Below, piece after piece: positions 23,475 through 52,529 of a stretch of 64,000 nt of DNA (position 1 is the first letter of the stretch; each line of letters opens with the position of its first letter). Source of the stretch: Physcia stellaris (taxonomy: Eukaryota > Ascomycota > Lecanoromycetes > Caliciales > Physciaceae); assembly GCA_018902385.1 (NCBI GenBank), contig JABSSW010000059.1:186001-250000 (forward strand), written 5' to 3'. The position numbers and the translations under genes were made by a program. Below the pieces are notes generated by a model. It searched no databases. It was not told the DNA's origin and was given only the letters and a program-made list of their open reading frames with translations.

Positions 23475-23610
23475 CGTCTCGTTTATTGCCAAATCAACGT
23501 GTTTATTATTGCTGTTTTTATTCTGCAGAAATCTCGCATACGAACTAAAACAAAAAAACACATGAAAATTTTGCAATTTGCAATGAAAATCGTTGATGTC
23601 GTTTCGAATA

Positions 23611-25212: not shown

Positions 25213-25512
25213 TGTAAAGCATTCAGAATTCAGATCGACATAAAATATGATCGAATTTCGATAAAATCGAAATATGCATCATGATCATTTGCAGAGCAAA
25301 CATCGAATTCGAAAAAATGCTGTTTGCATTTTTTTGTACAACAACAAGCAGCAAGTCGAGTGACTTGCAATTGAAATTTTTTATTCTTTTTATTCGTACA
25401 GTTGTATATAGCGAGCAAATAGTGATTAGAATTTTTGATTTTTTAAAAATTAATTTAATTATCAATCAGAAATTATACATTTTTGATGTTACATTTCGTA
25501 TTTTACATTTTA
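25213..25512 (+). repeat. 5' LTR of Ty3/gypsy element in island 1
   Basis: Begins TGTAAAGCATTCAGAATTC and matches the copy at 31379-31679 along its whole length, mostly with transition differences. Confidence 0.85.
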
Positions 25513-28500
25513 ATTTCTATCATAATCATCAAATTAACATCATTCGTGTATACAGCACATCAAGTCAACAACATGTTTGTTTTTTTTTTCTCACGAACAT
25601 CAATGAGTCGATTTTTGATTTTTCAAAATCAAACGTCATTTCGCAAAAATATCGAGCATACATTCAACAACAAATTGTTCGATATGAAACATTACGCAAT
25701 CGAATCATTTCATCAATCTTCAAAAAAAAGTCATTCTACATCAAAGTAATGAACGACAAGTCAGATCTATTCGCAGAAAACAATTACAAAGAATGAACTC
25801 AATACGTTTGAAAAATGAAAAATCAATTCGACATGAATCAAGCAAACGAATATGTCGATAATTCGAACAAGATCAAGCTTTTCTTTGTCGTCATTTTTTT
25901 GAAGAGAAGATTTAGTGTTCAACTGTTGTGAAATGCTAAAGTCAAGAACAACTCAAATAAAGAATATACATGAAAGAAATATGTTGACTTTTTTAAAAAA
26001 ACATTCAAAAAATTTTCACTAGAAAAGAGAACAACTTTCAGAAATATAAAGATTATACACAACGAATCAATCAATCAGTAAGAAATTACGATGCTCATCG
26101 TTTTGTTCTCGTTGCGAATTTGCATTCGATCATGAAGTTTTCATTTGCAATAGAATTACAGAATTTCATCTTGAATCTCATTCAAAATAATCAGAATTTT
26201 CTCGCAGAACAAGATATCGAGAACAACAAGAAAGAGATTTTGAAACGTCTCAAATGTCGAGAAAATAACGAACGCAAAAAGCAGCGCAATGCAAACAAAA
26301 ATAAATTTAAAAACAATTATAACAAACGCAAGAAAGACGAGAAAAATTTCGATGAAAAAAAAACAACAATCAGTTTCGATTCAACAAAAATCGAAAAAAA
26401 AAAAACGATAAGAAATTCAAAATTGATAATTTTAATCAAAAATCAGTCAAATTCAAAAAATTATGACGTTGAATCAAAAACGAATTCAAAAATATAATCG
26501 ACAACAACAAATGCAAAAATTGCGATAAGTCAAACTGTATTTTCAAGAATTGTAAAAATAAAAAGTCGAAAAAACATACATGAAAAATAGCATTCGATTC
26601 GAAATCAAAAAAGTAATCGATTTGATGATTTTCAATCAAATTGACACAATGAAAAATTCTATATTGAATGACGAAATTGATTTTAATTTTGATGAATCGT
26701 TCACGATCGATATCGAAATCAAAAACGTCAAACGTTGTCGAAAAAAATTTCGCATGATTAAATGCAAGAAAACAATAATCAAGATAAATAAGAGATCAGA
26801 CGAAAAAAGCAAATTAAAATTCGAAACAGTCATGAATTCAAAAGCAAAAATCAATTTGATAAATAATATTTTTGTTAAACAATTTGAATTAGAATCATTC
26901 AACGTGTTTAGTTGCGAAACAATGATTATCGATAATCATTTTTCAAAATTTATGACGTTTATTTCGTGCAATTCGAAATGCAAAACGAAAACGATGTGAA
27001 TCGTTTTTTCAATGATAACTTTTTAAAAACGAATCTGACATGAAACATGACATTAAATTTGTCATGAATGCAATTATCAAACGCAAAAATAAATTGAAAA
27101 ATCGACAAAATCGAATCGTGATTATTGATTGTAAAATCAATTTTTTCATCGTAAATCGTATCGAGAAAATCGAATCAAAAAAATTAATTAACGTTGTCGT
27201 CGATGACAAGAAACAGATTTTCGTCATGTTCGTACGAGTTTTTCATGACGAAAAAAAGAACATGAATAACGTACACATCGAACGACGAACACAAATTGAT
27301 TTGACTTTTGCGAAAATGAAAAATAAATCAAATATCAAAATCATTATATTCGAAATCTTGAAAAAATTCGCTGATTTGACAGATGAGAACAAGACATACG
27401 AATTATTTGATCACGAATCAAACGATTATGTTATTGATTTGAAATCAAACAAAAAATTTTTTTACGATTTCATTTACTCATTGTCAAAAGACGAGCTCAA
27501 GATATTGCGAATTTATTTAGATAAACATTTCAAAAACGATTTCATCAAATTTTTCATTTTCTCAGTCGAAGCATCAATTCTGTTCGTCAAGAAAAAAAAC
27601 GACATCTTGAAATTGTGTGTAAATTACAAAGACTTGAATTTCTTGACGATTAAAAATAGATATTTTTTGTCGTTAATCGATGAAAATCTAAATCGTCTGA
27701 GCAAAACTCGCATCTATACAAATCTTGATATGATAACAACATACAATAAATTACGTATCAAAGAAAATGATGAGTGAAAAACGACGTTCAAAACACGATA
27801 TGAGCATTTTGAATATATCGTTTTGTTTTTCGATTTAATTAATGCATTTGCGACGTTTCAAAATTTCGTCAATAAGATTCTGATCGAGCGACTCGATTTC
27901 ATTGTCATAATTTATTTGAATGATATAATCATATATTTCATGAACGAAAAGCAGCACATCGAAAACGTCAAATGAATTTTAAATCGTTTGCGAAAACACA
28001 AGCTCTTCATCAATATGAAAAAATGTAAATTTTTCAAAAACAACATTGACTTTCTAAATTTCGTTGTATTTTCAAAGAAAATACAAATGCAAAAGAATAA
28101 AATCGATGTCATACAAAAATGATCGACGTTCAAAAACGTGTCAGAAATTCTGAAATTTCTCGAATTATGCAATTTTTATAAACGATTCATCAAGCATTTC
28201 AATAAATTGACATTATTTTTAATTTCAATGCTAAAAAAATCAGCAAAATTTCATAAAAAAAAAATCAAACGAAAACGTAATTCGAGCAAAAATCGAAACA
28301 AAAATCACAACAAAAAACGATTGTCGAATGATTTTTTGATTTTCGAAATTTACGAAGCTTTCAAAAATTTACGAGATGCATTTTTGAAAACATTTATTTT
28401 GCAACATTTCGATTCGACTAAATTCATACGTGTGAAGATCGACGTCTCGAACAAAGCAATAAATGAGATTTTTTGTCAATCAAACGATCAAAGTCATTGA

Positions 28501-31378
28501 CATTCGATAGTTTATCTTTTCAGAAAATTGATTTCAGCGAAATGTAACTATGAAATTCACGACAAGAAGTTTTTGATCATAATTTTCGCATTCAAGCAAT
28601 GACGTCACTATCTCGAAAAAGCGAGAAAGCAAATATTCGTTTTGATGAATCATCGAAATTTCAATCGCTTCATGATCACAACGAAGTTATCATTTCGACA
28701 AGTACGATGAACGCAAAAGTTGTTTCGTTACAATTTCGTCATCGATTATCGTTTTGACAGCAAAAATTCAACGAACGACTTATTTCGACGATCTGATCAT
28801 ATGATCACAATTGAGAAAGAAATTGAAAACAATCGTCAAATTCTGACGCGTTTGCGACAATTTCTGCAATCGTTTTCGAACGAGTTTCAGATTTGCGTGA
28901 ACGAAATGAAAGCAACGATGTTCAAGTTCGATGATAATGAAAAAAACAGACTTGCGAATGATTTTTTTGATTTTCAAGAATGTGCATCAGACGTGATCAT
29001 CGATGAATGAAAAATTTTAATATTGAATAATGCAACGATTTCTCAATCGATCAACGAAATGTTTGCAAAAAAACATATTCACGAACACGATGCAACATAC
29101 GACGATAAAATCATTGACAATTTCGTCGAATTGATACGTTCATTGTTAAATCAAAATTCATGCGCGATTCAAATGAAACAAAAATTAATTATTTTTGATA
29201 TGTCACATTCGCATTGACAAAACGAAAAAAAAATATTGTGACACGATGATTGTTTATACGTTTCGTCAAATTTGAAAAAAAATGTCATAAAAACGAATCA
29301 TGACAACTTTTTCGCTGATTATTTCGAGATAAAGCGTATTCTTGAATTGATACGAAAGAAATATTATTGATTTAATCAAAAGCGAAACAATTTCGAAGAA
29401 AACGTCGAACACGATTCGAACATGCGTGCACAAATAAAAAAACATTGCGAAACATGTGCTATTTGCAAAAGAAACAAGACATTTCGTCACAAGTCATATG
29501 AAAAACTTTCGTTTTTTTTTATATCGAAATTCAAATGAGCTGATTTTACAATGAATTTCGTAACGAACTTTTCAGAAAGCAGAACATGAAATGAAACGAC
29601 GTATGATGCAATATTCGTTGTAATAAATCGTTTGATCAAAATGACAAATTATATTTCAATCACGAAAACGATAATCGCAAAAAATTTCGTCGAGATTTTA
29701 ATTCGAAAAATCATTAAATTTTATGATTTTTTATCGTCAATAACAACAAACAGAAATTCGATTTTTATCGCTAAATATCATGACGCATTATGTTATGTTT
29801 TGAAAATAAAATTGAAATTATTCACGATTTATTATTCGCAAACAAATGATCAGACGAAACGACAAAATTCAATCATAAAACAATATTTCAAATTTTTTGT
29901 CAATTTTGAACAAAATGATTGAATGAAACTATTGTCGATGATTGAATTTGCTTATAACAATAATAAGCATGCGTTTACGCAAATGTCATCGTTCGAAACG
30001 ATGCAAAAATACACGTTCAGAATGTTCTTCGAAAATTTTGCAAATTTTAAAATTAAATTCAAATCTGTTAAAAGCATGTCGAAAAGCTGATCGAATTGAT
30101 GAAAATACTGAAAATCAATTTAATTTACGCTCAGAAACAGCAAATCAAATACAAGAATGCAAAAATCAAATTAATGAAATTCGACGTAAATAATTACGTC
30201 AACGTCAACGTCAAAAATATTCGTATCAAACGCAACAAAAAATTGAAATGAAAATTTTTCGAATCATTCAAAATATTGAATACAATAAAAAATCAAGCAT
30301 ATCGCATAGATATATTCAAGCGTTGACGAATTCACAATGTTTTTCACGTTTTTTTGTTCGAGAAAATTATATTTAAAAAAAGAAAAAAAGTTTCGCTAAA
30401 ATTCACGTATCAATCAGATGACATCGACATCGAAAAAGACGAAAAATTCATCAATGAAAAGTATTGAATCGAAATCATTCTAAACAACAAAATTTACAAA
30501 GAAAAACAGATTTCAGACAAGTCATATAGCGAATCAAAACTCTATTATTTCGTTCAATGAAAGAATTACGAAAAACGTATTTGAAAGTTCGTGTCAATGA
30601 TCAAGCATTTTAAAAATATGCTCAAAAAATTTCATATGAAAAATTCGAAAAAAAACGATGTCAATAAGTTTACGAATCGTCGACGCGTTCGACGTCAAAT
30701 AAATGTAATTTTCACGATAAAATCGTTGACAAGAAAGTCAACATTTCACATTTGATTCGATGTTATTTATTGTTTAGAATTTACGACGCATGAAAAACTG
30801 AATCGTGTCAAAAACATTTTCAGAAATTGTTGTCCGATTTGATTGAGCGTTGAGTATAAATGTGAAATATGTTGTTGAATGTAACGATGAGAATTTCGAA
30901 ATTTGATATATCAATTGCGATCACGATTATTCGACGCGCATTTCGCTTAACAGTTTGCAATAACATATCAATTTTGATATACGGAAGCAGAAAAATGAGA
31001 TATGCAAAAAAATTCGAATTCGATTTCGCTGTCAACAAGTCAACTGTCAATCATCATATCGAAAATTGTGAATTGTACGAAATCAAATCATCGATATTGA
31101 AAACAACAGACAATAAAGTTATCAAATCATGCTTTTTTTGAGTCATTCAAAAAAATGTTCTTTCAGATTTTTAACGCAAACTGACTATGAGTTGCGAAGA
31201 ATATTCGATGCGAAAGTCACGATCACAGTGATTTTTCAAATCACGATTTTCGATGCGAAAATCACGACAACAGTGATTTTTCAAATCATAAAATATACAG
31301 ATTTAAAAATTTTTGCTACAAAACAAATGAAAAAATTTTGATCATTTCAAGAAATTTCGATGCTAAAAAGAAAACGCA

Positions 31379-31679
31379 TGTAAAACATTCAAAATTCAAA
31401 TCGACATAAAATATGATCGAATTTCGATAAAGTCGAAATATGCAACATGATCATTTGCAAAGCAAACATCGAATTCGAAAAAATGCTGTTTGCATTTTTT
31501 TGTACAACAATAAGCAGCAAGTCGAGTGATTTGCAATTGAAATTTTTTATTCTCTTTATTCGTACAGTTGTATATAGAAAGCAGATAGTGATTAAAATTT
31601 CTGATTTCTTAAAAATTAGTCTAATTATCAATCAGAAAACTATACATTTCTGATGCTACATTTCGTATCTTACATTTCA
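31379..31679 (+). repeat. 3' LTR of Ty3/gypsy element in island 1
   Basis: Begins TGTAAAACATTCAAAATTC after a purine-rich tract and ends TTACATTTCA; direct repeat of 25213-25512. Confidence 0.85.
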
Positions 31680-31741
31680 TTATCGTTGATTTTTTTGTTG
31701 TTGATTTTTTTATCGTTGATTTTTTTATTTTTGTCGTTGAT

Positions 31742-31975
31742 TTTTTTGTCACAAATTTTTGAAAAATTATTTTTGCGATATCGCAATTTGATTATATTTT
31801 CGATCGCAACAAGTTTTTTGAATCAATTTCATCAATTTCAAATTTTTTTGTCATTGATTTTTTTGTCACAAATTTTTGAAAAATTATTTTTGCGATGTCG
31901 CAATTTGATTATATTTTCGATCGCAACGAATTTTTTGAATCAATTTTATCAATTTCAAATTTTTTTCGTGTCGAA
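31742..31975. repeat. Two-copy tandem repeat, period 117 bp
   Basis: The unit starting TCACAAATTTTTGAAAAATT at 31749 recurs at 31866, with only a few changes across the full period. It directly follows the 3' LTR, inside interior sequence of the large TIR element. Confidence 0.75.
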
Positions 31976-34900
31976 TTTTTTGTTGATTTATTCACATTTG
32001 ACGCACGAATAACAAATTTTGTGAAATTTTTTGTTGAATTTTTCTTGATTTTTTCAGAAATTTTTGATTTTTCGATCGTTGAATTTCGTTTTTTTGATTT
32101 TGAGTCGCGCACAAATATCGTCGAACGTCGTGATGATTCGAAATTCAATGATAATGACAATGATAATAAACACGATTCGAATCAAGAATTCGTGCATTCA
32201 GACGATTTCGAAATCGAAATTCATTCAATATTCGCGCATTTGCGTCATGATTTTGTTATTGTCAAAAAAACAAATCAAAAAGTTCAACAAAAACATCAAA
32301 ATTCATGAGTTCAAGATAAAAAATATTGTCAAAATCATTATTTTTGATCGTTATCGCGTCGTCAAAACAAATCGATTCAATTTTTTGAACGAATAACGCG
32401 CATTATCAAAATCACACGTCAACATACGATTCAAACGAAATTTAATGTATTGAATCGACGATTTTTGATCAAAAAATTTGACGTTTTCGTTTCGAAACTG
32501 AACAAGTTCATGAAAGACAATTTTTTTGACAAATCACAAAAAATTATCATAAAACAATTGACGAAATATCAATTCAAATCGAAACAAAAACAGATTTTTT
32601 GTAATTGCAATTTTTTTTTTGTTTTTTTCGTTGCATTTGTCAAAAACATAACAAATGATGTTTTATTTATTGTCATGACGTCGATCAGAAATGCGACAAT
32701 GTCGTTGAAAAATTCGAGTTTCAACAATATGTTTTGATGAATCGAGCTGAAAAAATGATCAGGACGTTCGAAAAGTAATCGTTTAGCAAAAGAAATTGTA
32801 TGATTGAAGTTTCGCTCTTTCTGTAACGTTAACGTTAATATCTCGATAATCAATAGAAAAGTTTTGTTTTAAATGTCTCAATTGACGCAATGTTGTCATG
32901 TAATGATTATCGTTTACGCAATGTGTATGTTCTTGAATGATTATGTTTTGCTTGAATGAATTCAAGTTTCAGAATTGCGACACATTTTTATCGTAATTAG
33001 ACATGATAGTTTTATATTTATATCATTTGATTTCGAATTAACATTCGTACGAAAATGTACAATGATTGATGTGAATTTCATGAAACAAATTGCAATCATT
33101 GTTAACTTGTCAAATGAAAAAAACAAAATTTCAAAAAATATACAGAAAACGAAAAAATATGAAATAATGAAATTGTCATCGAAATTTATCGTTTCAAAAT
33201 TTTCAATTTTAAAATGTTTCAATATTATTTTTTTATTTTCTCAATGTGATTATTATTCATTTACATTTTTTAAAATTAATTCGTTCGAAAATCGAATGTT
33301 TATTTTTTGATTTTTGAATCGAAATTTGCAATGTAAAATGTGAATCAATGATGATCAAACTGATTGATAATTGAAATGTTATATCGAAATTTGTCGCATC
33401 AAAATTTTGAGTTTTTTTTTTCAAACATTTTGTCATACGAGACATAATATTTTCATTTGTTAAATAAAATCATTATTTATTCATCGTTCAGACATATGTT
33501 ATGACGATTTTAATTCGAAAACGTACGATATTGACAAAATTATCGTTAAAGAAATTAATCGTTGTTATTAATAATTCGATATGAACAATACTCGTCAAAT
33601 TGTTCATTTTTTGTTTAGTTTCACGAAAAAAATCGAGCAAATTTTTGATCAGAAAAAATTTTTTCAAATCGATTATCATAATTGAACAACATGATAAAAT
33701 TTCATTGTTTTTATTATTTTTTTTTCTGATTAATTCGTACGAATAAATGAAAAATAATATCAACGAAAAATTAATTTATATTGAATATGCAAAATGCACG
33801 CATGTAATTCAAAATGATTTTTTTCAAAATTTCATATTGTTAAAAAATCGAAATTCAATAATGTGTTGTTGTTGTTGATAAAATCGAAATCGAAATCGAA
33901 ATTCATTAACGTTTTTTTTGAAATCATTTTCTTATATTTTATTTTTTTTTTTTGATTTCAAGCATCAAAATGTCGCGCAATGTTCGATTTTTGATCATTT
34001 GTGAACGCATTACAATGAATTGCGATATTCGTACGAATATTAACGAATTGTAATAATCAACGAGAATTATGTTTTTTCAATCAACGTTGTCGTCGTGAAT
34101 TTTGAAATGAGAAAAAACGAATTAAAATTGACAAAAAGATGATTCAATTTCGCATTGTTTTTCGACTGAAAAACGTTCGTAATTCGTCAATTTATACGAC
34201 GATTATGCAGTGTTTTTGATTATTTTCAATCGAATCATTGCAAATATAACGCATTCGCAAAAATTGAAAACGTTTATCATTCAAATAAATTTATTTATAG
34301 TTTTGTAATTCAAAATTTAATGACATATCAGATTGTTGATCGATCAGCGAACGAACGTTGCATTCGTTGTTTTCAAATTGAAAAAATAAATCGAATTTTA
34401 TTTTTTCGTTTGTCGTCGCGTCAAAAACGAACTTGAAACGTGCGACGAATATTGATTTCGACACAAAACGTCGAAATGTTTTTTAAATATGTTTTTTTTT
34501 GATTCAATATAAATCGATAATTGATTTATGATGTAAATTCGATGCGAATGAAATTCGCGATCGCAAAAATAATATTTTCGATTTTCGTTAATATTATCGT
34601 TTTTTTTTCTGCATCAAAAAAACACGAAAATTTACATTAAAAACGTGAAAACGTTTTTAATGTTTACAAGTTAATATTTTTCGCAACGATTATTCAACAA
34701 AAAAAGTCGATTGACGTTTTTTGTGAATCGCGAACGATCAAAAAACGACGAAATCGACGAAACAATCAATAATCGTGTTGAAATCGTCGTCGATTTTTCA
34801 TTATTTTTGTTTTAAAACGAAAAATTATTTCAATTTGAACAACATAACAATTACGACGATTTCGATTCTGATATCGAAATCGAACGACTCGTTTTTGAAT

Positions 34901-37006
34901 TTTCGAATGTTGTTTTTATCACAGAAAAAACAAAAATTTCAAAAAGTCAATTTTCGAAAATTGATAAAAATCGAATTTCAACATCACGATCTCGTGTCGT
35001 AAAAAAATTTTTATCGTTTTTTTGATATTATTTTCGAAAAAAAAAATCAACGTACGTATGAAACGAAAAAACGAATTCATTTGAAAATGTAAATAAACGT
35101 GTGCGACGCATGAAAATGAAATTCGACGTTTAAACGTTTGAACGTTTTTTCAATAATCATGTATAAAAAAATTTTGTTATGAAAAACGATTTTATTGCAT
35201 ATTTCGTTATACACGAAATTGTAAAAAAATTGTTTCTAATCAAACGTCAAAAATATCAAAAATTCGAAAAATTGAAAAAAATATACAAACAATTTCATTG
35301 TTTAGATATGAAACGATTTAAATTGTACACAAACAATGATGTATGCATTAAATCGTCGTTTTATTGATTTCGTTGATCGTAATATGATATATAAAATCAA
35401 AACGATTTTTTTCGCAATCATATCAAGTTTTGAATGATATAACAAAAACACATTATCGTTGTTTCATTGTTGTTGAATATAAAATGTATGCAATATTGTC
35501 GAATTGATCGATCATTCACGATTTTTATTTCTACGAATGTCGCATATTTTATTCGCAAATTTCATTCAAATAATCGTTTAAACAAATGAATGATTTAATG
35601 ATTCAAACAAATGTTTTCATCATATGAAAAAATGTTTCACGATCGTGAAATCGTGATATTGAAATTAAAAATATAACGAAATTTGATTTCGCATCGTCGA
35701 TCAATTTTTCGTTTTTTTTTTTTTTTTAATTTTTTTTCATCATTTTCATTTTTTTTTACACGATGTTTTTTTCATCATCACGACGATAAATTGTAATACG
35801 AAATTTTGAATTTCAAAAACGTGTTTTTGACACGATTCAACGCGTTTTTGAAATTTTTATCACGTCGTAAATTTCACATACGTCGAAAAATGATCAAAAT
35901 TTTTCGTCACGATAAAACGAGTTTTTTTTTTCAACACGACGAAATGAATGATATCAAATTTCAATTATCGAAAAATCGATTAACAATTGTACAAAATTTT
36001 TTTTTTTGCGAAGTTTATTCAATTTTTTCAATTTTTTTTTCAATTTTTTTTTCAAAATTTTTTTTTTTCAATTTTTTCGTTCATACGATCATTTCGTTTT
36101 TATTTTGTCACAATTTTTTTCGACATTAATTCATACGATCACATCGTTCGTATTTTGTTATGATTTTTCATTTTCAATTACGTTTTCGCAATTATCATTG
36201 TTCAATCAAACATTTCGATCATTTTTTTTTCAATTTCGTGTTTTGTGTATCGAAATTCTGATTTTCAGCACGAAATTTTGATTTTCAATTCGAAATTCTG
36301 CTTTTCAGCACGAATTTTGATTTTCAACATTGTCAAATCAAAAAAGTAATGTTTATTGTCTGTTATACATCACATATTAACGAAAATTTTCAATTAATCA
36401 AACAAATGTTTCAAATCGAAATTCATCGTCAAATTTTGTTTTACGATTACGTTTTGACTTTTAATTTCATGAATGAAATTTCAATTGCATTTTGTTCAAT
36501 TGTTCATCATACGATTCGAATCAGCGATTTTATGAATGAAAAATGTTTATTTACAGTTCGTATCGCTAAACTAATCAGTCGATTTTGTTTCAATGATTAT
36601 TGATTTTTTATTCTGATATATAAATTCGATGCGACATTCAATAATTTTTACATTGTGTCAATCATCATGCGACGAAAATCAACATTTCACATTCAATGTA
36701 TTCATTAATTTTATTTAATCATTCTATTTTACAGTCATTTTTTTGTAAATATAATGTTCATTTTTCAAATATTACGACAATTCGTTGTTCAATCATTGCG
36801 ACACATGTTCATTCAAATTCATTGAAATTTGTTCATTTCAAAATATCAAAAATTTTATCACAATTTTCAAATTTAGTTTCATCATCATTCATTTTCTTTA
36901 TAAAATTGAAATAGAATTTTCGATTTTTTGTCAAATTCATTCAAAGTTAAACAATCGAATGTAAAGTTTATTTTCGATCGTCGTATTTTTTCGATTATTG
37001 ATTTTA
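31976..37006. other. AT-rich interior of the large element, no recognisable gene
   Basis: Frames of up to about 140 codons on both strands are rich in Phe, Ile, Asn and Lys and match nothing I know. Around 36078-36170 a unit beginning TTCATACGATCA occurs twice, and at 36248-36328 a ~26-bp unit containing TTTTCAGCACGAA occurs about three times. A 20-base word at 35822-35841 also occurs in the minus-strand Ty3/gypsy element at 53301, so part of this stretch may be an older Ty3 remnant. Confidence 0.4.
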
Positions 37007-37219
37007 TGTTTTTGTTGAAATACAGTCTTCGCAAGTGTGCTGTGCAGATGCTGCAGTCAGAATTCAATTGATATAATTTGACGAAAGAAGAACTAGTGCG
37101 TTCTTGTTGAGATTAGTGTTTTGATACTCGCACATTTCTTGTGTTTTCATCTGCATGTAACTTACTAAAAACGAGATTCAGAGCAATAGAATGGTAGTCA
37201 TTCATGATTCTTTCAATAG
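37007..37219 (+). repeat. Left LTR of the copia-like element
   Basis: Direct repeat of 40139-40355. The first ~150 bases are mutated relative to the right copy, nearly all C-to-T or G-to-A. From about 37160 onward the copies are almost identical. Confidence 0.75.
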
Positions 37220-37543
37220 GTTATGAGAATCGGGTTAGCAGTTTTCGCTACATCTAGTATCAGTTACAGCAGCATGAGCGCATGTCAGAGCAAGTAGTAA
37301 CTAGTCGTCGGGCAGTACAGCAATCGGTTTGCAGTACTTCAGCAGTAATCAACTTCATTGGGAGTATTCAGTCTTGTCAGACCAGAAATCGACCTAGTTG
37401 CATTGGCAGCACTCAGTACTATTCAGTATACTCTCAGTTACAGCAGTAACATTTATCTATCGAACCTTTGCGAATTCACAGCTTTCGACCTATCTATTTA
37501 TCTTACGAATTCTTCGCGAATTCGCCTATCTATTTACCTTACG

Positions 37544-38764
37544 ATGTCGAAATATTTACGCGAATTCTATCACTCAGTCAGAATGACGACTTCTATTTCT
37601 TTTACGATTCGTATCTCAATTTCTGCGAGTTTCGCATCGTTCACCTCCGAATTCGCCCTCGATATTCTTTCTTGGTCATTTTTTTTATGCATTTGTCTCG
37701 ACGCAAATGATTCGAGAACGCAAGACCTTCGAACTCTATATCACGAGCACACGAACTCAAGTTTTACTAGTGTTTCGCGATGCAGTTGGTTCGTTCAAGC
37801 GAAAAGAGTACAAGAAGGATATCTTGTGCGAAAGCACGAGTTGGAAATCAAGGGCAAGACAAAGCAGAAAGCGAAGGAGTCGTTGAGAGAACAGGAGGAA
37901 GTCCGACTAGCCAAGAAGCGAGCTGAAGGATATACGTGCAGGCGTTGCAAGAGCAAATTCGACGGCAACACCAAGCTTCACGAGCATATTCGTACTCGTC
38001 ATGTCAAGAAGTCGAAATCGAAGCCTGCTCAGCAGTTTGTTGAGTCTGTTGCCTCATCTCCTATTTCGCCTGTCTCGTCATCTCGATCGGTAATCTTTTC
38101 ATTTTCAACGTCATCGAAACTCCTACCTCTCTCGATGCCCACACCAGAAATTGTACGCGAGCGTTCAGAGAGCACATCTTCTCCCGAAACCCCGTCAGAT
38201 TCCTCGTCGGTTGCAACACCAAGAAAACCGATATCGTGGGCAGAAATCGCCTCACGGCCTGTTGCGCCGAAACCCTCACGTCTCCCGATTGCGACACCCA
38301 AATCGGTGTGCAAACCGTTGGAGAATGCAAGCATTGCTTGCCCGCCGACTCCGCCTCGTACCCCTTCACCGAAACCATCGAGGCCCTATCTCACCGTGGA
38401 CGACCTGTTCCGCATGTTCGCTGGGAAGCCGAGTCCATTTGGCCTGCAGCCACGTCAGAACAAGCCGTTGTCTCCGCGCAGCTTCGGCAAATGCAGTCCC
38501 AAAAGCAAATGTGGCCCCATACAAACCCGCATTACGTCATACTTCCATGCGGCGGCCTCACCTGCTTCCAAATCGGCCAAATCCGAAGCATCTGGGCCAA
38601 CACATGCCCGCGGAAGCCCTCCGCGCCAATTTTCGGTCTCCCCACGATCGGCCTCACCTACCTCTTTTCCTTCTCGATTTGCTTCGGTGCGCCCCTCTTT
38701 CTCGGCATTCTCGCGTCCACCTCCTGTTTGCAGGCATTGTCAAGGGCGTTCCGCCACCTATTGA
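37544..38764 (+). CDS. C2H2 zinc-finger, Ser/Pro-rich cargo protein of the copia-like element
   Basis: About 406 aa from the first in-frame ATG; the frame itself is open further upstream from 37358. A basic, Glu-rich helical stretch (KAKESLREQEEVRLAKKRAE) precedes one C2H2 finger of the form C-X2-C-X12-H-X4-H, starting CRRCKSKF and ending HIRTRH. Then follow a Ser/Pro/Thr-rich linker, the segments KPISWAEIASRP and YLTVDDLFRMFAGKPSPFGL, and a C-terminal PPPVCRHC. Similar finger-plus-YLTxxDLxRMFAGKP proteins recur, as far as I recall, in leotiomycete genomes as repeated 'C2H2 domain' genes; that is memory, not a search. Its place between two LTRs suggests a transposon-borne gene. A DNA- or RNA-binding role is inferred from the finger only. 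Codon use is normal, unlike the surrounding AT-rich DNA. Confidence 0.6.
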   Translation: MSKYLREFYHSVRMTTSISFTIRISISASFASFTSEFALDILSWSFFLCICLDANDSRTQDLRTLYHEHTNSSFTSVSRCSWFVQAKRVQEGYLVRKHELEIKGKTKQKAKESLREQEEVRLAKKRAEGYTCRRCKSKFDGNTKLHEHIRTRHVKKSKSKPAQQFVESVASSPISPVSSSRSVIFSFSTSSKLLPLSMPTPEIVRERSESTSSPETPSDSSSVATPRKPISWAEIASRPVAPKPSRLPIATPKSVCKPLENASIACPPTPPRTPSPKPSRPYLTVDDLFRMFAGKPSPFGLQPRQNKPLSPRSFGKCSPKSKCGPIQTRITSYFHAAASPASKSAKSEASGPTHARGSPPRQFSVSPRSASPTSFPSRFASVRPSFSAFSRPPPVCRHCQGRSATY

Positions 38765-39215
38765 CCTACCGGTTGGGCCAAACCAAATGCCTCAAGAGTT
38801 GAGAACAATGAGATACCCATGGGGCAACGCTATTGGAGTTTCGCTCCTCCCCGCCCTACTTTGGGGAAGTATTGACCCCTCGTCGGGGAGTCACTACTCT
38901 GGGGAAGTTAGAGCATGTTGTTTGCTTGTTTGTTTTGCCCGCCCCTCCTCCCTATTAACCGTTGATCGGCCGTGACCTGAGAAAGCATAAAAGTTGTTGT
39001 TTTAATGAATTCGATGTCCCGCCCCTCCCGCCCCATCAAAGCCTGGAGGAGCTTCAAAAGTTGTTGTATGCTTTGTTGTTTTGTTTATTGTTTAACGAAT
39101 ATGATAGAGACTTACCTTTGTTGATTCGTCTTGATCTAACACGACTAATTAATCGCCTCTTTTCTCTATTACTCTTGAGGCTTAGTCGCCCGATAAATAC
39201 GAGGGGAAGAGAGTG

Positions 39216-39403
39216 ACAGTACAGCTCAGGGAAGCGTACTGTACGTACAACTGTTAGAAGAGGAGGAGCAGTCTACTAGACAGTACAACTTCGAGGGAGT
39301 GTACTGGTCAAGATGCTCACGTTCACATAGTATCGCTTTGGAGGAGCATACTATACAGATTCGACTAGAAGTCACATAGTACCGCTTCGGGGAGCGTACT
39401 ATG
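39216..39403 (+). repeat. Four hairpin-forming repeat units
   Basis: Units at 39216-39242, 39280-39307, 39326-39354 and 39375-39403 each have a perfect or near-perfect stem around a G-rich loop. Stems are ACAGTAC/GTACTGT, ACAGTAC/GTACTG, ATAGTAT/ATACTAT and CATAGTA/TACTATG, and an inner GCT/AGC pair recurs. Stem sequences change together on both sides. Confidence 0.65.
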
Positions 39404-39991
39404 CAATCATATTACATCTCGGCCTTGCAAAACAGAAACTCGATCAAGAAGAACAAATAGTGCTGGAGATATCTGATCTTTTCGCATACTAATCGATCTG
39501 GTTCTCTGGCAGGTCTTAGTCAGGTCAGAAAAGCTCGAATCTGCACTCTTTGCACCGGTACATGCCTTTCATATCGATTTCTCGACCATTTTCAGCTTTG
39601 CGCATCTCGTCGACACATCTTATGAACTTTCTACAGTCAAATTGCATAGACATCGATTCATTGATGTCGCAAAAAATATCTGAGAATTCTGAGATTTACA
39701 ATGATGCTACATGATGTGATCTGCATTCTCGTTCGTCATCGCAGAACTCAGGCATAGAATATTTGCTTAATGATGTATTTTTTAGTCAATTCTAGATATC
39801 AGATTTCACATCGATGCTTCACGTCATGGAGATGCACATTCAGAACGACGCATCTCTTCAGATAATCGATCAATTGCTCGATCGCACGTTTTATCAATCG
39901 ACCCTACGTCATATCTGAAGTCAATAGGTCATCGGACCTCGATTCGTTCGTTTCTGCAGTCTTCGCATCGGTGCATGAACCAGGATATATC

Positions 39992-40093
39992 ACGCTGGGG
40001 GAGCTTGCTCGGAAGCTCCAGGCAATACATCGCTGGGGGAGCTTCGCTGGGGGAGCTACATCGCTGAGGGAGCTTGCACGGAAGCTCCAGCCC
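39992..40093 (+). repeat. CGCTGGGGGAGCT repeat cluster
   Basis: The word CGCTGGGGGAGCT (once CGCTGAGGGAGCT) occurs four times at 39994, 40031, 40046 and 40062. The first and last are followed by an inverted GGAAGCTCC, giving GGGAGCTT...AAGCTCC hairpins. Confidence 0.65.
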
Positions 40094-40138
40094 AGGCTGG
40101 GCTCGTTAGGATACAGGGCAGGAGGCACAAGCGGTTGC

Positions 40139-40355
40139 TGTGGGGGAGTGTTGAACTACAGCCTCCGCAGGTGTGCTTCGCAGGTTTTGCAGTCAGGGTC
40201 CAGTTAGTATAACCTGACGAAAGCAGGACTGGTGCGTCCTTGTTGGGACTAGTGCCTTGGCACCCGCACACTTCTTGTGCTTCCACCTGCATGTAACTTA
40301 CTAAAAACGAGATTCAGAGCAATAGAATGGTAGTCACCCATGATTCTTTCAATAG
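40139..40355 (+). repeat. Right LTR of the copia-like element
   Basis: Starts TGTGGGGGAGTGTTGAAC; its GC-normal sequence serves as the unmutated reference for the left copy. Confidence 0.75.
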
Positions 40356-40426
40356 TTTCGACGATCACTTGCGATAAAACATGCGTTGTACAACTGTATA
40401 GACATGACAGAAATTTCGTTGCAGAA

Positions 40427-40510
40427 AAAGAAATTTCGCTGCACGATATCGACGAGAAATTTGCGAAAAGAATTTCGTTGCACAATATCGACGAAAGATT
40501 TGCGAGAAAT
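40427..40510. repeat. Two-copy tandem repeat, period about 42 bp
   Basis: Units contain AATTTCGCTGCACGATATCG and a close variant (TTGCACAATATCGACGAA), followed by ATTTGCGA. Located next to the right terminal repeat of the large element. Confidence 0.6.
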
Positions 40511-40607
40511 TTGCAAAATAATCGATTTTCAATTAATACGTCAAATCACAAAAGCAGCATGCGTTGAAATATCAACAATATTCGTGCGTTAAACAATACA
40601 TTAAATC

Positions 40608-40743
40608 ATTTGTCAATGATTTGAATATTGATCAATCAACGCGTTTATTTGTCAATATTTGTTTATTGATCAATGAACGCGTTGATTGACGAATGAACGT
40701 ACGTTGATTGAGCAATAAACTTATTGATGTATGAACGGGCACA
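40608..40743. repeat. Right terminal inverted repeat of the large element
   Basis: Reverse complement of the left repeat at its outer ~10 bases, at several internal CGTTGATTG / TTGATCAATAAACG motifs and at its inner end. About 136 bp. Confidence 0.65.
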
Positions 40744-44586: not shown

Positions 44587-46509
44587 TCAAGAGGCCGGAA
44601 GCCGCGCCTCGAAAACCCCCCCCTCAAGGCTATTCACCCAATCCAGCACGTCTCCACCATCAACGACATAGCCCAGCAGAGGCTTGGTCTGGGATTTGGT
44701 CACGCCGCCCCAGTTGAGTCCTGTCCATCTGCCCGTGTCAGTGAAAGTCCACGAGCCTGCATCCCCTCTGCTAAGAAACGTCGTACTATGATGCGTAGCA
44801 TCAGCCAAGAAGCAGTACTCGGAGGTCGGCGGCAATCCCACATCGACTTGAACAGTGTGCATCATGGAGTTCCAGCGCCCCGACGTCCCAGCCGAGGACG
44901 CACCGACTTTGTAAACCCGGGCGCCACCATCACAGGATCCCATGCCACTCAAGGACTCCCCGCACACGATAGGAGTTAGACTAGACCGGGGCCATGCTGA
45001 TGCATTCGGGATTGTGTTGTCGCCCAGCTTGTCGGGCTTGACTTCGAGGATCGCAATGTCCATCCGATGATTGCGCCCGGCCTTCTGGAACCGTTCCGAG
45101 GAGCCGGAGCAGAGATATAGCGCCCCAAAGGCCTGTTTGCCGTCGTCGAAGTACTGCATCTTCCGTGCCTTGCTCGCGCGTTGTTCGACGAGTAGGTTCG
45201 TGGCTCGGAGGTCTCCTGGTCGCTGCCTCAGGAATTCCTCGGATCGTGCAATTGCTGCCTCGGCCTGGAGTAGTGAGAAGTTGTGCTTGCGGCGGGTTGG
45301 AGACTCATAGACTATTTTTTCTCGATTCTTGTCTCCAGGGTTCATGGGCTTTTGGTCGAGTATGTGAACTTCGGATTTCGGCGGTCCCCACGGCTCAATA
45401 GGATTGCCATTCTTATCCAGCGCGTAAGAGGGTCCTGCCATAGCGGATCTGACGGCCTGGTAGCTAGTCACCGCATATCTCTTCCATGGACCCTTCTGGG
45501 CGCGGTGGCGTATCTCAAGGTACCCTCCGATGGTGCCCCACGGTCCAGGAACGGGCTTCCCATCCACCGTGAAGGAAACTTGGGGCCCGAAGTCTGCGCC
45601 CATGGGAACACGTTCCGGGTAGTCTTCTTCAGTGGAGTAGAACTCATGTAATCTAGCCTCTCTGGCGGGCGGGAGATTTGCAAGAGGTTCGACGTCACCA
45701 CGCTCAAACTCGACATCGACATCGTCCAGGCCTCCGGCGCTGAGTAGCGCATCCTTGATCTCTTTCTCGGCCTCGATCCAATCGGGGGGATCCAGGGTCC
45801 AATCCACGGTGATGGAGATCGTAACGGATGTCCGCTCGATCTGGTCATCTTCGTATCCCATCCGGACAGGGTCAATGCTCCTCCAGCCGGTTGCAAGCTT
45901 CGGAGTACTGTTCAGTATCCTCAGGATCCGTGAATTCATTTCTGGCCATATTGGTACGAGAGGGTGGTGTGGTTCAACGACTCTGATTATCTTTGGCGCG
46001 GTGAGCTGCCAGCTGAGCAGCTCCACTGTGATGGGTCTTGTCAAAGAGCTTGTGAGGAACACGCTTCGAATGTCTGCAGCGGCGTCGTACCACGCTTGCC
46101 CATCTTCGTTACTGGTCCATCGGGCTGTAATTAGAAATGTGAGGTCATCCTTTGATCTGGATGCCTCAGGATCCGTCCTAAACACAAGGTCCGAGTCGTT
46201 CTCATCGAAATCTATCGCATGCTTTCTCAGAGCTTGGTAGATTTGTGGCTGAAACTCGTGGATCTGAGCAGCGATGGCCGCACAATCTGGATCTTCTTCC
46301 CAGGGTGTCGCCAAAAGCGGAAGAGGCCTCAGTCCAGGGATCCCGACACGATAGCGCTCACCAGTGAAAGATCCTGGGAGCCGAGCTTGAATGGCAAGCT
46401 CAGAACCGGTCGAAGCGCTATCATGAATACGGCGACGTTTTTCGGCCCGTGATTGGGATGAGTTGCTTCTTGTTGTTGTTGTTGGTGGAGATGGGTAAGA
46501 TGAAGCCAT
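44587..46509 (-). CDS. Large protein with degenerate trypsin-like (S1-type) C-terminal domain
   Basis: Single exon, 640 aa. The N-terminus is low-complexity with a basic patch (AEKRRRIHD) that could be a nuclear signal. The central ~350 residues are unrecognised. The last ~170 residues resemble a trypsin-like fold: LYLCSGSSERF, MDIAILEV (position of the catalytic Asp), ARVYKVGASSAGTSGRWNSM, and the block FLSRGDAGSWTF followed by GRWTGLNWGG. In active relatives this block reads G-D-S-G; here the nucleophile serine (residue about 584) is alanine, so the domain is probably not a protease and may bind a partner instead. Similar inactive or orphan trypsin-like proteins are common in leotiomycetes and other plant-associated fungi. 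There is no signal peptide. The frame is intact over 1.9 kb, which argues for a functional gene. Confidence 0.75.
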   Translation of the reverse strand: MASSYPSPPTTTTRSNSSQSRAEKRRRIHDSASTGSELAIQARLPGSFTGERYRVGIPGLRPLPLLATPWEEDPDCAAIAAQIHEFQPQIYQALRKHAIDFDENDSDLVFRTDPEASRSKDDLTFLITARWTSNEDGQAWYDAAADIRSVFLTSSLTRPITVELLSWQLTAPKIIRVVEPHHPLVPIWPEMNSRILRILNSTPKLATGWRSIDPVRMGYEDDQIERTSVTISITVDWTLDPPDWIEAEKEIKDALLSAGGLDDVDVEFERGDVEPLANLPPAREARLHEFYSTEEDYPERVPMGADFGPQVSFTVDGKPVPGPWGTIGGYLEIRHRAQKGPWKRYAVTSYQAVRSAMAGPSYALDKNGNPIEPWGPPKSEVHILDQKPMNPGDKNREKIVYESPTRRKHNFSLLQAEAAIARSEEFLRQRPGDLRATNLLVEQRASKARKMQYFDDGKQAFGALYLCSGSSERFQKAGRNHRMDIAILEVKPDKLGDNTIPNASAWPRSSLTPIVCGESLSGMGSCDGGARVYKVGASSAGTSGRWNSMMHTVQVDVGLPPTSEYCFLADATHHSTTFLSRGDAGSWTFTDTGRWTGLNWGGVTKSQTKPLLGYVVDGGDVLDWVNSLEGGVFEARLPAS

Positions 46510-47480
46510 GACCTAAGGGTGTGCGTGTAGTGCGTTCAGTGGCAGAGCAGCGAAAGCGGAAATAGAACTGTACGGTAATGAGAATGGGTGCACCTATGGA
46601 AGAAGGTCTGGTGTCTCTATCTTGTTGTAACAGTGATAGAGGGAAAGGAGAGAATGTAGTGGGAGAGGAGCTTTGGGTGATTGCAGGATATTGGTAAAGT
46701 ATGTTGACCTCTATGTACATTAGGAGTGTTGACCTCTGACGTGTATTTCGGTTGCTTGTTTTCCAAATATTACCGGATGCCCCTTCCGTTTTAAGTAAAA
46801 TACCATGAAGGCACTAAAATTGCAGTATGAAGTCTCATGCAGTGATTCACAAGAAGTGTAATGGCAATTCTCGCGGACCGCGTTCCTTTTCCTATTTGTG
46901 GGAAGCCCATCACGCAATTGATGAAATTCGCAAACCATCTCCAGCGGCGGCTGCCCCATCAAATGTGGCTTCTGCCCTTTCCCATTAGAACTCCGATTCT
47001 CTCGGTAAGTAGAAAGAATACTGCAAGAGACACTATCGCTATCCCTCCCCAAGCATCGCCACCAATACATCTAATATGACAAGACGCGTACGCGTGTTTG
47101 GCACAAAGCAAATGAAGACGGCATGAAGACGATATGAAAATGGTATGAAAATAACATCATCTTCTGATTCCGCTCTAAGTCGGGTAATGGTAGATCTGTG
47201 GATGTAGAGGTTAGCACCACTTATTATCATTACCGGACCATGGGATATCCGAAGGTGAGATTATGAGTCATGATATCGAAATATCATGCTAGTAGATTCA
47301 ACAAGAAGACTCATCCAGAATTCAAAGGCGCTAAAACAGAGTTGTGATTATCAAATATCACACTTCGCATCAAATTTGTACCGTATGGAATCAAGGATCC
47401 GGACCAAAAGGACATACGGGCCGAATCCCGACAAGGGTCAAGGGTCCAAGCCAAGCAGGTTCGAAACACTAAGTAAGCTA
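46510..47480. other. Intergenic, no gene supported
   Basis: Upstream region of the trypsin-like gene and left flank of the foldback element. Frames up to about 116 codons on the minus strand lack family features. Confidence 0.4.
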
Positions 47481-47946
47481 TTAGCGTGGAAAGGTTGCTT
47501 GCAAATCCTTGGCATCCTCCTCCCAGGAACCCCCTCTCAAATTTGTATGGTAGGTAGTAACCTGAGAAAAATTTTCAATTGATGTTTCATCCACCTTTTC
47601 AAAGCATATAAATCATTGAAGTCTTAAATTCTTCTGTATAGCCGTTTCTTGATGTTGTTTTATCGATTCTTCATCCAATGCCTTCAAAACAAGACGAAAC
47701 TCTAACCCTAAGCCACAATGATCTCGCTGAAGGAGCGCGAGTCTGAGTTTTGATGACGTTATCGATTTTGCGAAAAGACATGCCTGCAACACCAAGAAAC
47801 GGCTATACAGAAGTATTCATGTCTTCAACGAAAAAGTGGTTGAAACATCAATTGAATATTCCTCTCAGATTACTACCATACAAATTTGAGAGGGGGGGTC
47901 CTGGGAGGAGGATGCCAAGGATTCGCAAGCAACCTTTCCACGCTAA
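47481..47946. mobile_element. Foldback MITE, Tc1/mariner-type ends
   Basis: A 466-bp unit whose two arms (about 47481-47655 and 47785-47946) are near-perfect inverted repeats. Ends read TTAGCGTGGAAAGGTTGC on both strands and are flanked by TA on each side, the target used by Tc1/mariner elements. The loop of about 130 bp has no coding sequence. No RIP-like mutation is evident. The long arms make it a foldback type. Confidence 0.75.
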
Positions 47947-48477
47947 TAGTTGATGAGAGCTTTGCGGCTGAGAGATAACACACTGCAGCAAAGCCCATGG
48001 ACTCAAACCCAGGAGGCCGGACGCTCTTGCGGCTCTGGCAGGTAGAAGACGTAGAAAACATCACGTAGCTTGCAGTCTTGTGTGTTTGAAAGCGCTAGGA
48101 ACCAAGGCAGCCAATGTTTTTGTTCGCTTGAGTAGCTTTGCCATCTCATCTGGGGCCATCCAGAGCCAAAGGGGATTGCGATAGGTGCCCCTTCGCTTAA
48201 CCGGTCTCTTCATTCGTCAAATCATCCCACTTGTCACGAGAACATACATGCTCATCCTCACAGCCCATGCCACCTATCTCATTTCCCATTCGTCAACAAC
48301 ACATTTGTATCGACCGATATCACTCCATATCAGCCGGCTCGTGCAACGTTGATGCGACTCTCAGTCAGTACATCCTGGTGTTTGAGCTCTGGGCAGGTCT
48401 CTCTGTCCCCTTGGCCAGAAAGATAGGTGGTGAACTGGAAGTTTTTATTATGCACGAGGCTAGGCTAAGTACAATGG
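47947..48477. other. Intergenic between MITE and island 2
   Basis: Ordinary composition; one chance plus-strand frame (48231-48581) runs into the LTR that begins at 48478, so I do not call it a gene. Confidence 0.4.
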
Positions 48478-48700
48478 TGTTGGAGGGGAGTAACAGGAAA
48501 CTGGCTATTGGCTCATTAAGCGAGTTGCACGTGACTAGCCTTATATGCTTGGCATTCGGTCTTCTACAAAACCGCCTGTAGCACTCTTCTAGATAGTCAT
48601 AATCCACACACTTTACAACAGAAACATTACGTTCGATAATTGATTTTATTGAGTTTCGATTTTTTGATCTTCTGTCACTGTGTTAATTATTTTCTTTATT
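48478..48700. repeat. Left LTR of the non-autonomous element
   Basis: First ~130 bases have normal composition, the rest is AT-rich. The match to 52031-52259 includes the identical stretch TACGTTCGATAATTGATTTT. Confidence 0.7.
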
Positions 48701-51700
48701 GATGTTCATTTTCGAAAAACGATTGACAATAAAATCGTCGTTGATCGTTCACTGTTTACATTTTTTGAAAACAGCAAAATCGAATTTTTTATTACACGAC
48801 AACAATTTTATCGATTGTTTATTTTTTCGAACGACGAAATTCTTTATATTATTATTATTGAACGGCGAAATTTCAATTTCATACGATTTATAATTGACGA
48901 ATAGTTTTAATCAACACGTTGTATTTTTTGCTTTCGATTTCGAACATATTCGATTTGTTAATTTCGCAATATTTTTCGCAGCAACATTTCTGTCTTTTCA
49001 GAAACAAAACATCAGACACGTTGCTTGAATTCTCGCTACGAATAATGAAAAAAAAGCGATTACGAACAATTGTTATTGTCGTTACGAACGATTGCCGTTA
49101 TTGAATTGATTAGATTTCTGAAACGATTCAATCAAAACGTACATTTATTAGCGATTTCGACATTCGTGCGAACGTTATTATCATTTCTGAATCACGTCAA
49201 TATTCGATGCTTGATTTGAATACATCGTTCATGATACAATTTTAGCGAACAAAACGTGTATTTTCGTCAGAAAATCAATCGATTTGTTTCAGCATTCGCA
49301 GCAATAATTTCGACGTTTTGTTTCAATATTCGTTGTTGAAATGATTTCGACATTCTGTTTCAAAATTCGATTTCGATAATTTGTTCATTCATTTGACTGA
49401 AATCGTTTCGTTTCGACGATAATTCGAATCAACGTCATGATTTATTTCGAAAGTTTTACTCGTTGAGACAGAAATTTTCTGAACGCATGTTGTCATGTAT
49501 TGTCTTCGAATCTGATTTGCAGCGAGTGAATGTTGAAGATTATTCGTCATTATAATGTTCGAACATTCGATTGAAGTCGTCAACAACGTTAAAATGAATC
49601 GTTTTCGTCATGTTGCAGAGTTTGAATATGTTACATCTGAACATGAAATTCAATTAATCAATGTCATCATGAAATTTCGTGATTCACGACAAGAAATCAA
49701 TGTTTATTTCAACAATTTACATCAAGCGTTCGACGAATTCATTGAACAATATCATGCGCGAATTATTCATTTTTTTTGATTTTATTGATGACGTGAATCG
49801 ACAATTTGACATTATTTTGAACGAATTTGACGAGAAATATCATTTTCAGAAAATGATTGAAATCTTTTGTGAATTTGAAAAACAAGCAGTTTAACGAGCA
49901 ATTGTTGTCAATATATCAAGAAAAAAATCACACATTTTCAGTTTGACAAAATTTTGTATAATTGCATCAATAAAATACGCAAAGATACAACACGATCGAA
50001 AACGTCAAAAAAAAAAAATCAACTGATTTTACAACAACAAATTCAAAAGATCGTTGATCGTGATAGCGTTCGAATTTTAAATCGTTACGAATTTCAAATT
50101 GTTTCTAAAAACTTGTCATGCAATTTGATGAAAATCTGTACAACTGTGAATATCACGAATATTTTGTTTTTTTCGAAGTTTATTGTTTCAGAATTTACGA
50201 GTTTTCAGAAGTCATCACACGAAATCAGATTTGTTGACGAGTTTTCGTTTGTTCTGAAACAAATAATGTTTGAAATGTCGAAAATCAATGCAGATATCGT
50301 GAATTCTGATGATATCGAATCAATCGATGAAATTCTTGTTTCTGAATTTGACAAATGAATTGTCGTCGCAACAAAAAGAAAATTGTTGATTACATTAATA
50401 CATTTAACGAAACTTTGAAAAATTCGTTCGTATTCGATATCGAATCAATTTCGAATATCTCATTTGATTGAAATCGTTGTTACATTGTTGATATGAAAAT
50501 TTTGAATCAGAAAATTTTTGCTTTGATTGTCATGTATGACGCATTTTCGAAAAATTCGTTCGCATTATTCATCGAGAATATGAAAATTTCGATCGCAATG
50601 AATATGTCGTCTTTCAAACATCTCATGAACATGAATGATTCGACTATTGAAATTTTTGATTTTGATATTACAATAGACGCACATTCGAAAAATTCGTTAA
50701 TACAACATATCGAAAATTCAGAAATCACGAAAAGATTTCTGTTTCGATTTTCATTGATTTCATTTTTGATTCGATTTTCATTTACGAATTATTTGCATTT
50801 TTTGTTTTCGATTTTGATTTTGATATCGATTTCGAAATTTATACAATCGATATCGAAACATTTTCATTTGATTGAAGTCGTTGTTGTATTAATTTTATTG
50901 ATTTTCGCATTTCGATTTTTATTTGTATTTTTGTTTTGATTGTCATTGTCATCATTTCGAATGTCATTTTTGAAATTACAACTATCGACTTCTATGTGAA
51001 AAAGCAATTTTTGTTATTTTGTTTCGTTGATTTTTCTGTTTCGTTCGTTGATGATGTCATTTCTATTAATCAGAATATCGATTTTTATGAGAAAAAACAA
51101 TTGTTTTGCTCGACGAAATATTTTTTTGTCTCGATTATCACTGAATGCATCACTGTTTCGAATACGAATTTTATGAAAAAAAACAATTTTTCTGTTTCAA
51201 TGTTGATTTTGTTGTTGTTGTTGAAAATATCGATGCGTTCATTCTGATCGCTGATTTGATCAATATTACGATGAATTTTGTCTAAATATCATTTCTAAAT
51301 TTTATTGAGAACGCGATCTCGAAATCGAAACATAAAAATTTTCGAAGATGAAAATCAAGCGATGTTAAAATCGAAACATATCGAATCAAAAAATAAAATC
51401 GTTGTTGAAATATTCATCAAATTCGCATACAAAATCGTCTTGTTTTTCGACATTTGACAACGATTAAAATCTTTGAAATAATTGCAAAATACGCGTGCAA
51501 AATGATCACATTTTCGAACACATCAATAAAATTCAATATATTTGAGATATTTGCAAGATTTGCATACAAATTCGTTTTGTTTTTAACATTCAACAATCGC
51601 AAAATCTTGAGATAATTGCAAAATTTGCAAACAAAATAATCATTTTTTCGAACATGTCAACAATCGTCAATACATTTGAAATATTTGCAATTTTCGTATA

Positions 51701-52030
51701 CAAAGTGATTTCGTTTTTCGATAATGCGCAAGATTTCAAAACGTGCAAATTCAAAATTTTCGAATTAGCATACGATTTCGACATTTCGAATTTGCAAACA
51801 GTCATATTTGATATCATGCGATTGCGACGAAAATAAAGTTTTATTTTTATGAATTTTCGGCATTTTCCGATATCTGTTTTACGAATTTTCTTTTTTTCGA
51901 CGTACAACGTGATTTATTTGATCTGATTTTCGATGTCAATATTGTCATGCGTTAAAAAATCTATGTTGTCTGATTGAAAATGATTTAATGAAATGATGTT
52001 GAAAACAACATCTTGCTTATGAAAAAAAAC

Positions 52031-52259
52031 TGTTGAAAAAAAAAAAATAACAAAAAATTGATAATTGATTCATAAACGAATTGCACGTGATTAATTTTAT
52101 ATGTTTGACATTCGACTTTTTACAAAATTATCTATAGCATTTTTTTAAATACATAGTTATAATTCACATATTTTATATCAGAAGCAATACGTTCGATAAT
52201 TGATTTTATTGAATTTCGATATTTTGATTTTTTGTCACGTGTTAATTATTCTCTTTATT
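52031..52259. repeat. Right LTR of the non-autonomous element
   Basis: Direct repeat of 48478-48700, transition-mutated along its whole length; followed after about 50 bases by the next LTR element. Confidence 0.7.
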
Positions 52260-52312
52260 AATGATTGAAATGCTTAATAAACATCAATTTCGTTCGAAGA
52301 AGTTGCACATCA

Positions 52313-52529
52313 TGTGAGATGTCATGCATTGATATGATACTAATACATAACTACACGAAAATTTTTAAGTAAAAAGCAAATACATGAAAATCTGCAAAAA
52401 CATATGTAGAAAATTTGATTCTTTGAATGCGTCAAGACGAATTTCGATTCTAACATTCGATAATAAAATAACGATGTTAACACGATGTTAATTCTGTTCA
52501 GATGTTGAATTCGATGCACGTTCGTCACA
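52313..52529 (-). repeat. 3' LTR of the minus-strand Ty3/gypsy element
   Basis: 217 bp; direct repeat of 59589-59803; preceded by CATCA. Confidence 0.85.

Follow-up and report, generated by a model that had tools for sequence, protein, structure and literature searches.

In the repeated DNA of the ascomycete Physcia stellaris that we read, cytosines have been replaced by thymines according to the base that follows them, most often before C and next before T, and CpA and CpG are nearly exempt. This pattern was found in LTRs, in a decayed rDNA unit, and in AT-rich islands, and it is probably the product of a RIP-type genome defence with specificity for a pyrimidine at position +1 (CpC first, then CpT, on both strands). 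The preliminary description of this DNA had proposed, from a single LTR pair, a RIP-like process with a specificity other than CpA, and in this the wider analysis agrees with it. The window, i.e., the whole stretch of 64,000 nucleotides that was analyzed, corresponds to G000:C59:186001-250000, in a genome of 43.97 Mb and 147 contigs.

Mutation of the left LTR

The element that carries the pattern (37013-40354) is embedded in island DNA. Its left LTR (37013-37218) and its right LTR (40149-40354), both on the forward strand, are 206 bp long and not 139 bp (37022-37160 and 40158-40296), as first proposed. They are flanked by GTTTT (37008-37012) and GTTTC (40355-40359), likely a target-site duplication, of which the left copy shows one CpT-type C>T change relative to the right one. 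Its assignment to copia is weak: the internal ORF of 468 amino acids (37358-38764) had no Pfam match at E 0.001. The sequence GGTTATGAG at 37219-37227, directly after the left LTR, may be a primer site of the half-tRNA type seen in copia elements, which it resembles. The ORF has a C2H2-like motif by eye. As we noticed no pol, this short element is probably nonautonomous. Its internal part (37219-40148, forward strand), counted as CC per 100 bp, is CpC-poor near the left end and at 39601-39900.

Alignment of the left LTR with the spared right LTR (37018-37219 versus the positions at +3136) revealed 34 differences, 28 of which were C>T or G>A and 6 of other kinds. CpC was changed at 17 of 22 sites, CpT at 8 of 31, CpA at 2 of 33, and CpG at 1 of 12 (Fisher test, CpC versus CpA; P = 5e−8), the same ranking of CpC, CpT, and CpA as in the by-eye count of the preliminary description, and a stronger one. 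As a proxy for the ancestor we used a copy on contig C56 (L003), which among 43 copies had the fewest non-RIP differences to the left LTR. Against this copy, all 25 substitutions in the left LTR were C>T (18 C>T and 7 G>A by strand), with one 2-base indel, and 24 of the 25 were at CpY. By context, the changes affected 17/20 CpC, 7/31 CpT, 1/37 CpA, and 0/10 CpG (Fisher test; P = 1.4e−10 for CpC versus CpA, 1.4e−5 for CpC versus CpT, 0.019 for CpT versus CpA, and 1e−5 for CpC versus CpG). Since this comparison shows C>T substitutions only, the 6 other changes between the two LTRs are presumably peculiar to the right one. The same pattern was obtained with 13 further copies (CpC, 12 to 19 of 16 to 22; CpT, 6 to 8; CpA, 1 to 2; CpG, 0 to 1).

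The following base sets the target

The base after the cytosine, not the base before it, sets the target. Where a CC of the left LTR had no C before it, its first C was mutated in 14 of 17 cases; the second C of CC, when it stood before A or G, was mutated in 0 of 8 (P = 1.5e−4). The following base thus decides, as is described for RIP and for C5-methyltransferases, and the finding fits an enzyme of the latter kind. APOBEC enzymes, on the other hand, recognize the base 5′ of the C. A single-strand cytidine deaminase of the APOBEC/AID type that edits repeats would account for the C>T changes on both strands of the left LTR (18 C>T and 7 G>A), but the contrast between 14/17 and 0/8 disfavours APOBEC-like editing of 5′-CC, and we regard such an enzyme as a very improbable source of these mutations.

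CpC is almost absent from AT islands

In two blocks of the window, at ~23.5 to 37 kb and ~48.6 to 64 kb, the GC content falls from ~50% to ~27%. The gene part (1-23000), which has normal CpC (2724 CC/GG), was used as a yardstick for these islands. At its rate, ~1540 CC/GG would be expected in 13 kb of the first island (23501-37012) and ~1658 in 14 kb of the second (48601-64000); there were 3 in 24000-37000 and 9 in 50000-64000. Island CpC is depleted ~100-fold, to 0.00 to 0.01 of the gene level, as are all four NCC trinucleotides (0.00 to 0.01). CpT is at 0.21 to 0.24 of the gene level, CpA at 0.91 to 0.94, and CpG at 0.97 to 1.06, so that CpA is not as low as CpC, as the specificity first proposed implied. 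A small patch beyond the far side of the element (40401-40700) also has 0 CC/GG and is repeated elsewhere in the genome. Of the canonical RIP indices, TpA/ApT is not raised in the islands (0.42), (CpA+TpG)/(ApC+GpT) is not lowered (1.40 to 1.49), and the composite is −0.97 to −1.07; the islands consequently score as not mutated by RIP under thresholds taken from excerpts of two published studies (PMC7882544 and PMC3897900).

Islands of this kind occur elsewhere in the genome. They were found in three of eight 10-kb stretches sampled on contigs C1, C2, and C3. In 74 AT-rich 500-bp windows (GC < 34%) from the sampled, rDNA, and methyltransferase stretches, the observed/expected ratios were 0.03 for CpC, 0.44 for CpT, 1.19 for CpA, and 2.89 for CpG; over all readings at this GC level, they ranged from 0.01 to 0.03 for CpC and from 1.2 to 1.3 for CpA, with CpG at ~3. 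Sixteen windows at 34 to 42% GC were intermediate (CpC, 0.26; CpA, 1.08). A further count covered 129 windows below 32% GC from 32 loci, some of them overlapping, and refers to sampled stretches rather than to the whole genome: the median of CC+GG was 0 and that of CA+TG was 61, and in none of the 129 did CC+GG exceed CA+TG. CC+GG reached at least 5 in five windows. Four of these coincide with a less mutated LTR, and two of the four represent a single place. TpA/ApT exceeded 0.89 in none of the 129, which lends no support to the alternative in the preliminary description, a second process acting beside canonical CpA RIP.

The three CpC-free stretches that we tested are all repeated. The one at 56001-57500 has at least 41 matches, mostly 72 to 98% alike, that at 40360-40720 has 85, and that at 48650-50000 has 37, each including itself.

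The apparent loss of CpC could be a sequencing artefact in which methylated C in CpC and CpT is called T, with no true mutation. This would need near-total miscalling, with 12 CC/GG left in 27 kb and CpA and CpG intact, and it fits poorly with the difference between the left and right LTRs of one element, 3 kb apart, and with the large insertions that the rDNA unit also has. We find it scarcely credible.

A decayed rDNA unit shows the same specificity

The search for 5.8S rRNA, in which the best 39 of 2644 candidates were scored, pointed to one place, C41:45899-46052. This place is surrounded by a complete but heavily damaged rDNA unit with Rfam matches to SSU, 5.8S, and LSU rRNA. At strongly conserved consensus positions of 15 aligned blocks, 52/59 CpC, 27/49 CpT, 3/57 CpA, and 0/28 CpG were changed, compared with 3/220 A/U positions. 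As expected of RIP, changes are therefore almost only C>T/G>A, here as in the left LTR (25/25 against the C56 copy). When every aligned position of the 15 blocks was counted, including weakly conserved ones at which the consensus reflects the ancestor less reliably, the changes were 126/157 for CpC, 74/127 for CpT, 19/109 for CpG, and 14/117 for CpA. For the DNA that we read, canonical CpA RIP was rejected on the CpA counts of the LTR (1/37) and of the rDNA (3/57), the near-normal CpA of the islands, and the canonical indices, including the absence of any window with raised TpA/ApT among the 129.

When aligned with SSU and LSU rRNA, the unit (L039-L041; ~41.1 to 51.0 kb) shows several large insertions, the longest of 417 positions, which are perhaps old group I introns. 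For 5S rRNA, eight copies were found, all with flanks of 40 to 49% GC, too few to serve as a mutation test. One of them, in gene-like DNA (L070, G000:C2:1277878-1277996), has CC>TT and GG>AG relative to the others; three more (L071, L072, and L073) have differences of another kind.

A probable order of changes, CpC before CpT

The right LTR has at least 40 matches in the genome, and 11 LTR pairs among them were compared together with the window's own pair. When the latter was left out, CpC was changed at 37/232.5 sites (16%), CpG at 6/122.5 (5%), CpA at 10/387.5 (3%), and CpT at 7/318.5 (2%), a clear excess of CpC over CpA (P = 2.6e−9) and none of CpT. The highest CpG signal came from the pair L029/L050 (4/14.5), and the 12 pairs together had 30 transversions. 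Relative to the right LTR, 39 copies, picked by their likeness to this spared copy, are lightly mutated, with 0 to 8 of ~21 CpC changed in each. Their summed changes, which say little about contexts other than CpC because the right LTR has itself changed and served as the standard by which the matches were selected, are 124/835 for CpC, 49/1341 for CpA (39 of the 49 in CCA context), 15/427 for CpG, and 26/1144 for CpT, along with 99 reverse changes (CpA, 38; CpC, 28; CpT, 24; CpG, 9) and 239 others.

CpC is thus raised in lightly mutated copies and CpT is not, while CpT follows in the heavily mutated left LTR and rDNA. From this difference we infer an order in time, CpC first and CpT later. 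Several observations count against a RIP-type defence aimed at a +1 pyrimidine: CpT is not above CpA in the lightly mutated copies (26/1144 versus 49/1341 in the 39 copies; 7/318.5 versus 10/387.5 in the 11 pairs), the 39 copies are so lightly mutated, and a stretch of the window has a near-identical, hardly mutated second copy on another contig, beside a gene that differs without CpC bias.

A parallel contig and the rate of mutation

This copy is on the 20.6-kb contig C127, which holds the one other match (88%) of the gene at 44587-46509. The contig (L074, G000:C127:1-5100) is parallel to the window from ~44.9 to 50.0 kb, with a likeness, over 44587-50010, of 88% in the gene, ~99% between gene and island, and 97% in the island. 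Between gene and island (46510-48600; 2067 aligned bases), the C/T differences in both directions were 7 at CpC, 5 at CpT, 1 at CpA, and 0 at CpG, with 7 transversions and no RIP burst, so a stretch with normal CpC also has a near-identical second copy. The gene part (44800-46509) differed at 38 CpG, 32 CpT, 23 CpC, and 13 CpA, with 65 transversions and no CpC bias. In the island, the C/T differences were mostly CpT (22, in both directions, for 57 sites per copy), with 5 at CpG, 2 at CpA, and 2 at CpC, which suggests that mutation of CpT is still going on. Contig C127 may be a second haplotype or a duplication with an unusually diverged gene. In the first case, the island differences would represent the process segregating; in the second, with both copies in one nucleus, an almost intact 2-kb duplicate would count against efficient RIP.

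The CpT differences of the island would also suit a slow decay, in which repeats are heavily methylated at CpC and CpT (silencing of the MIP type) and then lose cytosines by spontaneous deamination. The restriction to C>T changes, in repeats, and the presence of C5-methyltransferase genes agree with this as well. Its difficulty is the rate. With 17/20 CpC changed and no non-RIP substitution in 206 bp, CpC in the left LTR mutated at an estimated rate at least ~98 times the background, the C56 copy (the best of 43) standing in for the ancestor. Methylated CpG has a roughly tenfold raised mutation. The CpC rate exceeds what is expected of 5mC deamination and so favours active mutation; slow decay is, in our view, unlikely, and the RIP-type defence remains the reading that we prefer.

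Candidate enzymes and a possible mechanism

A search of the genome with the PF00145 profile led to four places, which represent three C5-methyltransferase genes with long frames. The RID/Dim-2 genes to which the preliminary description had pointed have putative counterparts here, two RID-like (RID/Masc1) and one DIM-2-like, in our judgement from their size and form. The first RID-like gene (L035, C6; 2407-4062) has three exons with GT-AG introns and encodes 508 amino acids. The second (L037, C5; 2817-5704) has one intron and encodes ~935 amino acids when its frame is taken from the preceding stop. In the methyltransferase domain, 40% of 305 aligned positions are identical between the two proteins, as are 34% of 149 positions upstream of it, and both keep PPCQ and GNAVPP. 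The DIM-2-like gene (L036, C3) is a frame of 1118 amino acids with PF00145 and DUF7893. The presence in one genome of two RID-like C5-methyltransferases of such unlike length (508 and ~935 amino acids) is an observation in its own right. The genome also has a MAT alpha-box match, which fits a sexual ascomycete, and we take the gene set to be compatible with an ascomycete of the Pezizomycotina. A search for a deaminase of the APOBEC/AID type (PF08210) gave no match in the genome, but the controls also gave none, so that this result is no sign of absence.

In the mechanism that we propose, homology between copies would trigger the process, which would run before meiosis, and a C5-methyltransferase of the RID type (either of the RID-like enzymes, or the DIM-2-like one) would set the target. 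C would then be turned to T first before C and later before T, on both strands, and the process would continue until hardly any CpC is left in the repeats that it affects. By codon logic, changes of CpC to TpC and of GpG to GpA create stops from TGG only, while CpA RIP creates them from CAA, CAG, and TGG. For a more specific proposal we see even chances: that CpC is the primary target, with CpA and CpG exempt, owing to a re-aimed recognition of a RID-type methyltransferase, perhaps in one RID-like paralogue. Such an enzyme would leave CAA and CAG codons alone, make stops from TGG only, and strip repeats almost entirely of CpC, with results that CpA-based surveys miss.

What makes RIP choose one dinucleotide over another has not, to our knowledge, been settled. 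With the least-used target turned first, and with two RID-like paralogues, this genome is a natural swap in which target choice could be tested. Surveys based on TpA/ApT and CpA would score such islands as RIP-free, and the reach of RIP-like defence may accordingly be underestimated; depletion of CpC (GpG) would be worth adding to RIP scans.

Comparison with known systems

The comparisons below draw on excerpts of the cited papers. The order of RIP targets is CpA>CpT>CpG>CpC in Neurospora crassa, and in Trichoderma reesei CpA is similar to CpG, with CpT>CpC (PMC5496416). The process described here resembles N. crassa RIP in its C>T/G>A changes in repeats, its AT islands, and its RID-like and DIM-2-like genes. 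It differs in that CpC, the least used target in N. crassa, comes first and CpT second, with CpA and CpG almost exempt. Amselem 2015 (PMC4352252) gives, in the excerpt, signatures at CpA, CpT, and CpG, with no CpC, and ties CpT to RID in three species. As in Botrytis, Sclerotinia, and Magnaporthe, CpT is affected here, and the RID/Masc1-class gene, present in one or two copies, has two candidates in P. stellaris; CpT is mutated alongside CpA in those fungi, whereas in P. stellaris CpC is the main target and CpA is left alone (PMC4352252). CpT is the dominant form in some RIP-capable control species (PMC7882544), and Anisogramma shows CpA and CpT (PMC10998396).

Our literature search, of partial coverage and without the 2025 fungal-kingdom survey, retrieved no description of a RIP that puts CpC first while sparing CpA. 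Three fungi, known to us from excerpts, are partial precedents for CpC. In Monilinia, RIP regions have CpC→TpT double mutations beside the classical CpA→TpA, and canonical indices are positive; the loss of CpC is shared, but here it comes without CpA→TpA and without positive canonical indices (PMC8959702). Repeats of Stagonospora nodorum are depleted in CpC/GpG, as here, but also in CpA and CpG, with a rise of TpA only and with CpA dominant (RIPCAL paper, PMC2621366). Lastly, the basidiomycete Rhizoctonia solani AG8 shows RIP-like hypermutation, in the form of heterozygous SNPs both in genes and in repeats, which its authors describe as CpG-biased, and CpC has the shortest spacing of the four C/T classes in their Table 2 (PMC4014442). 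The C/T bias outside CpA is common to R. solani AG8 and P. stellaris, but in the latter CpG is spared.
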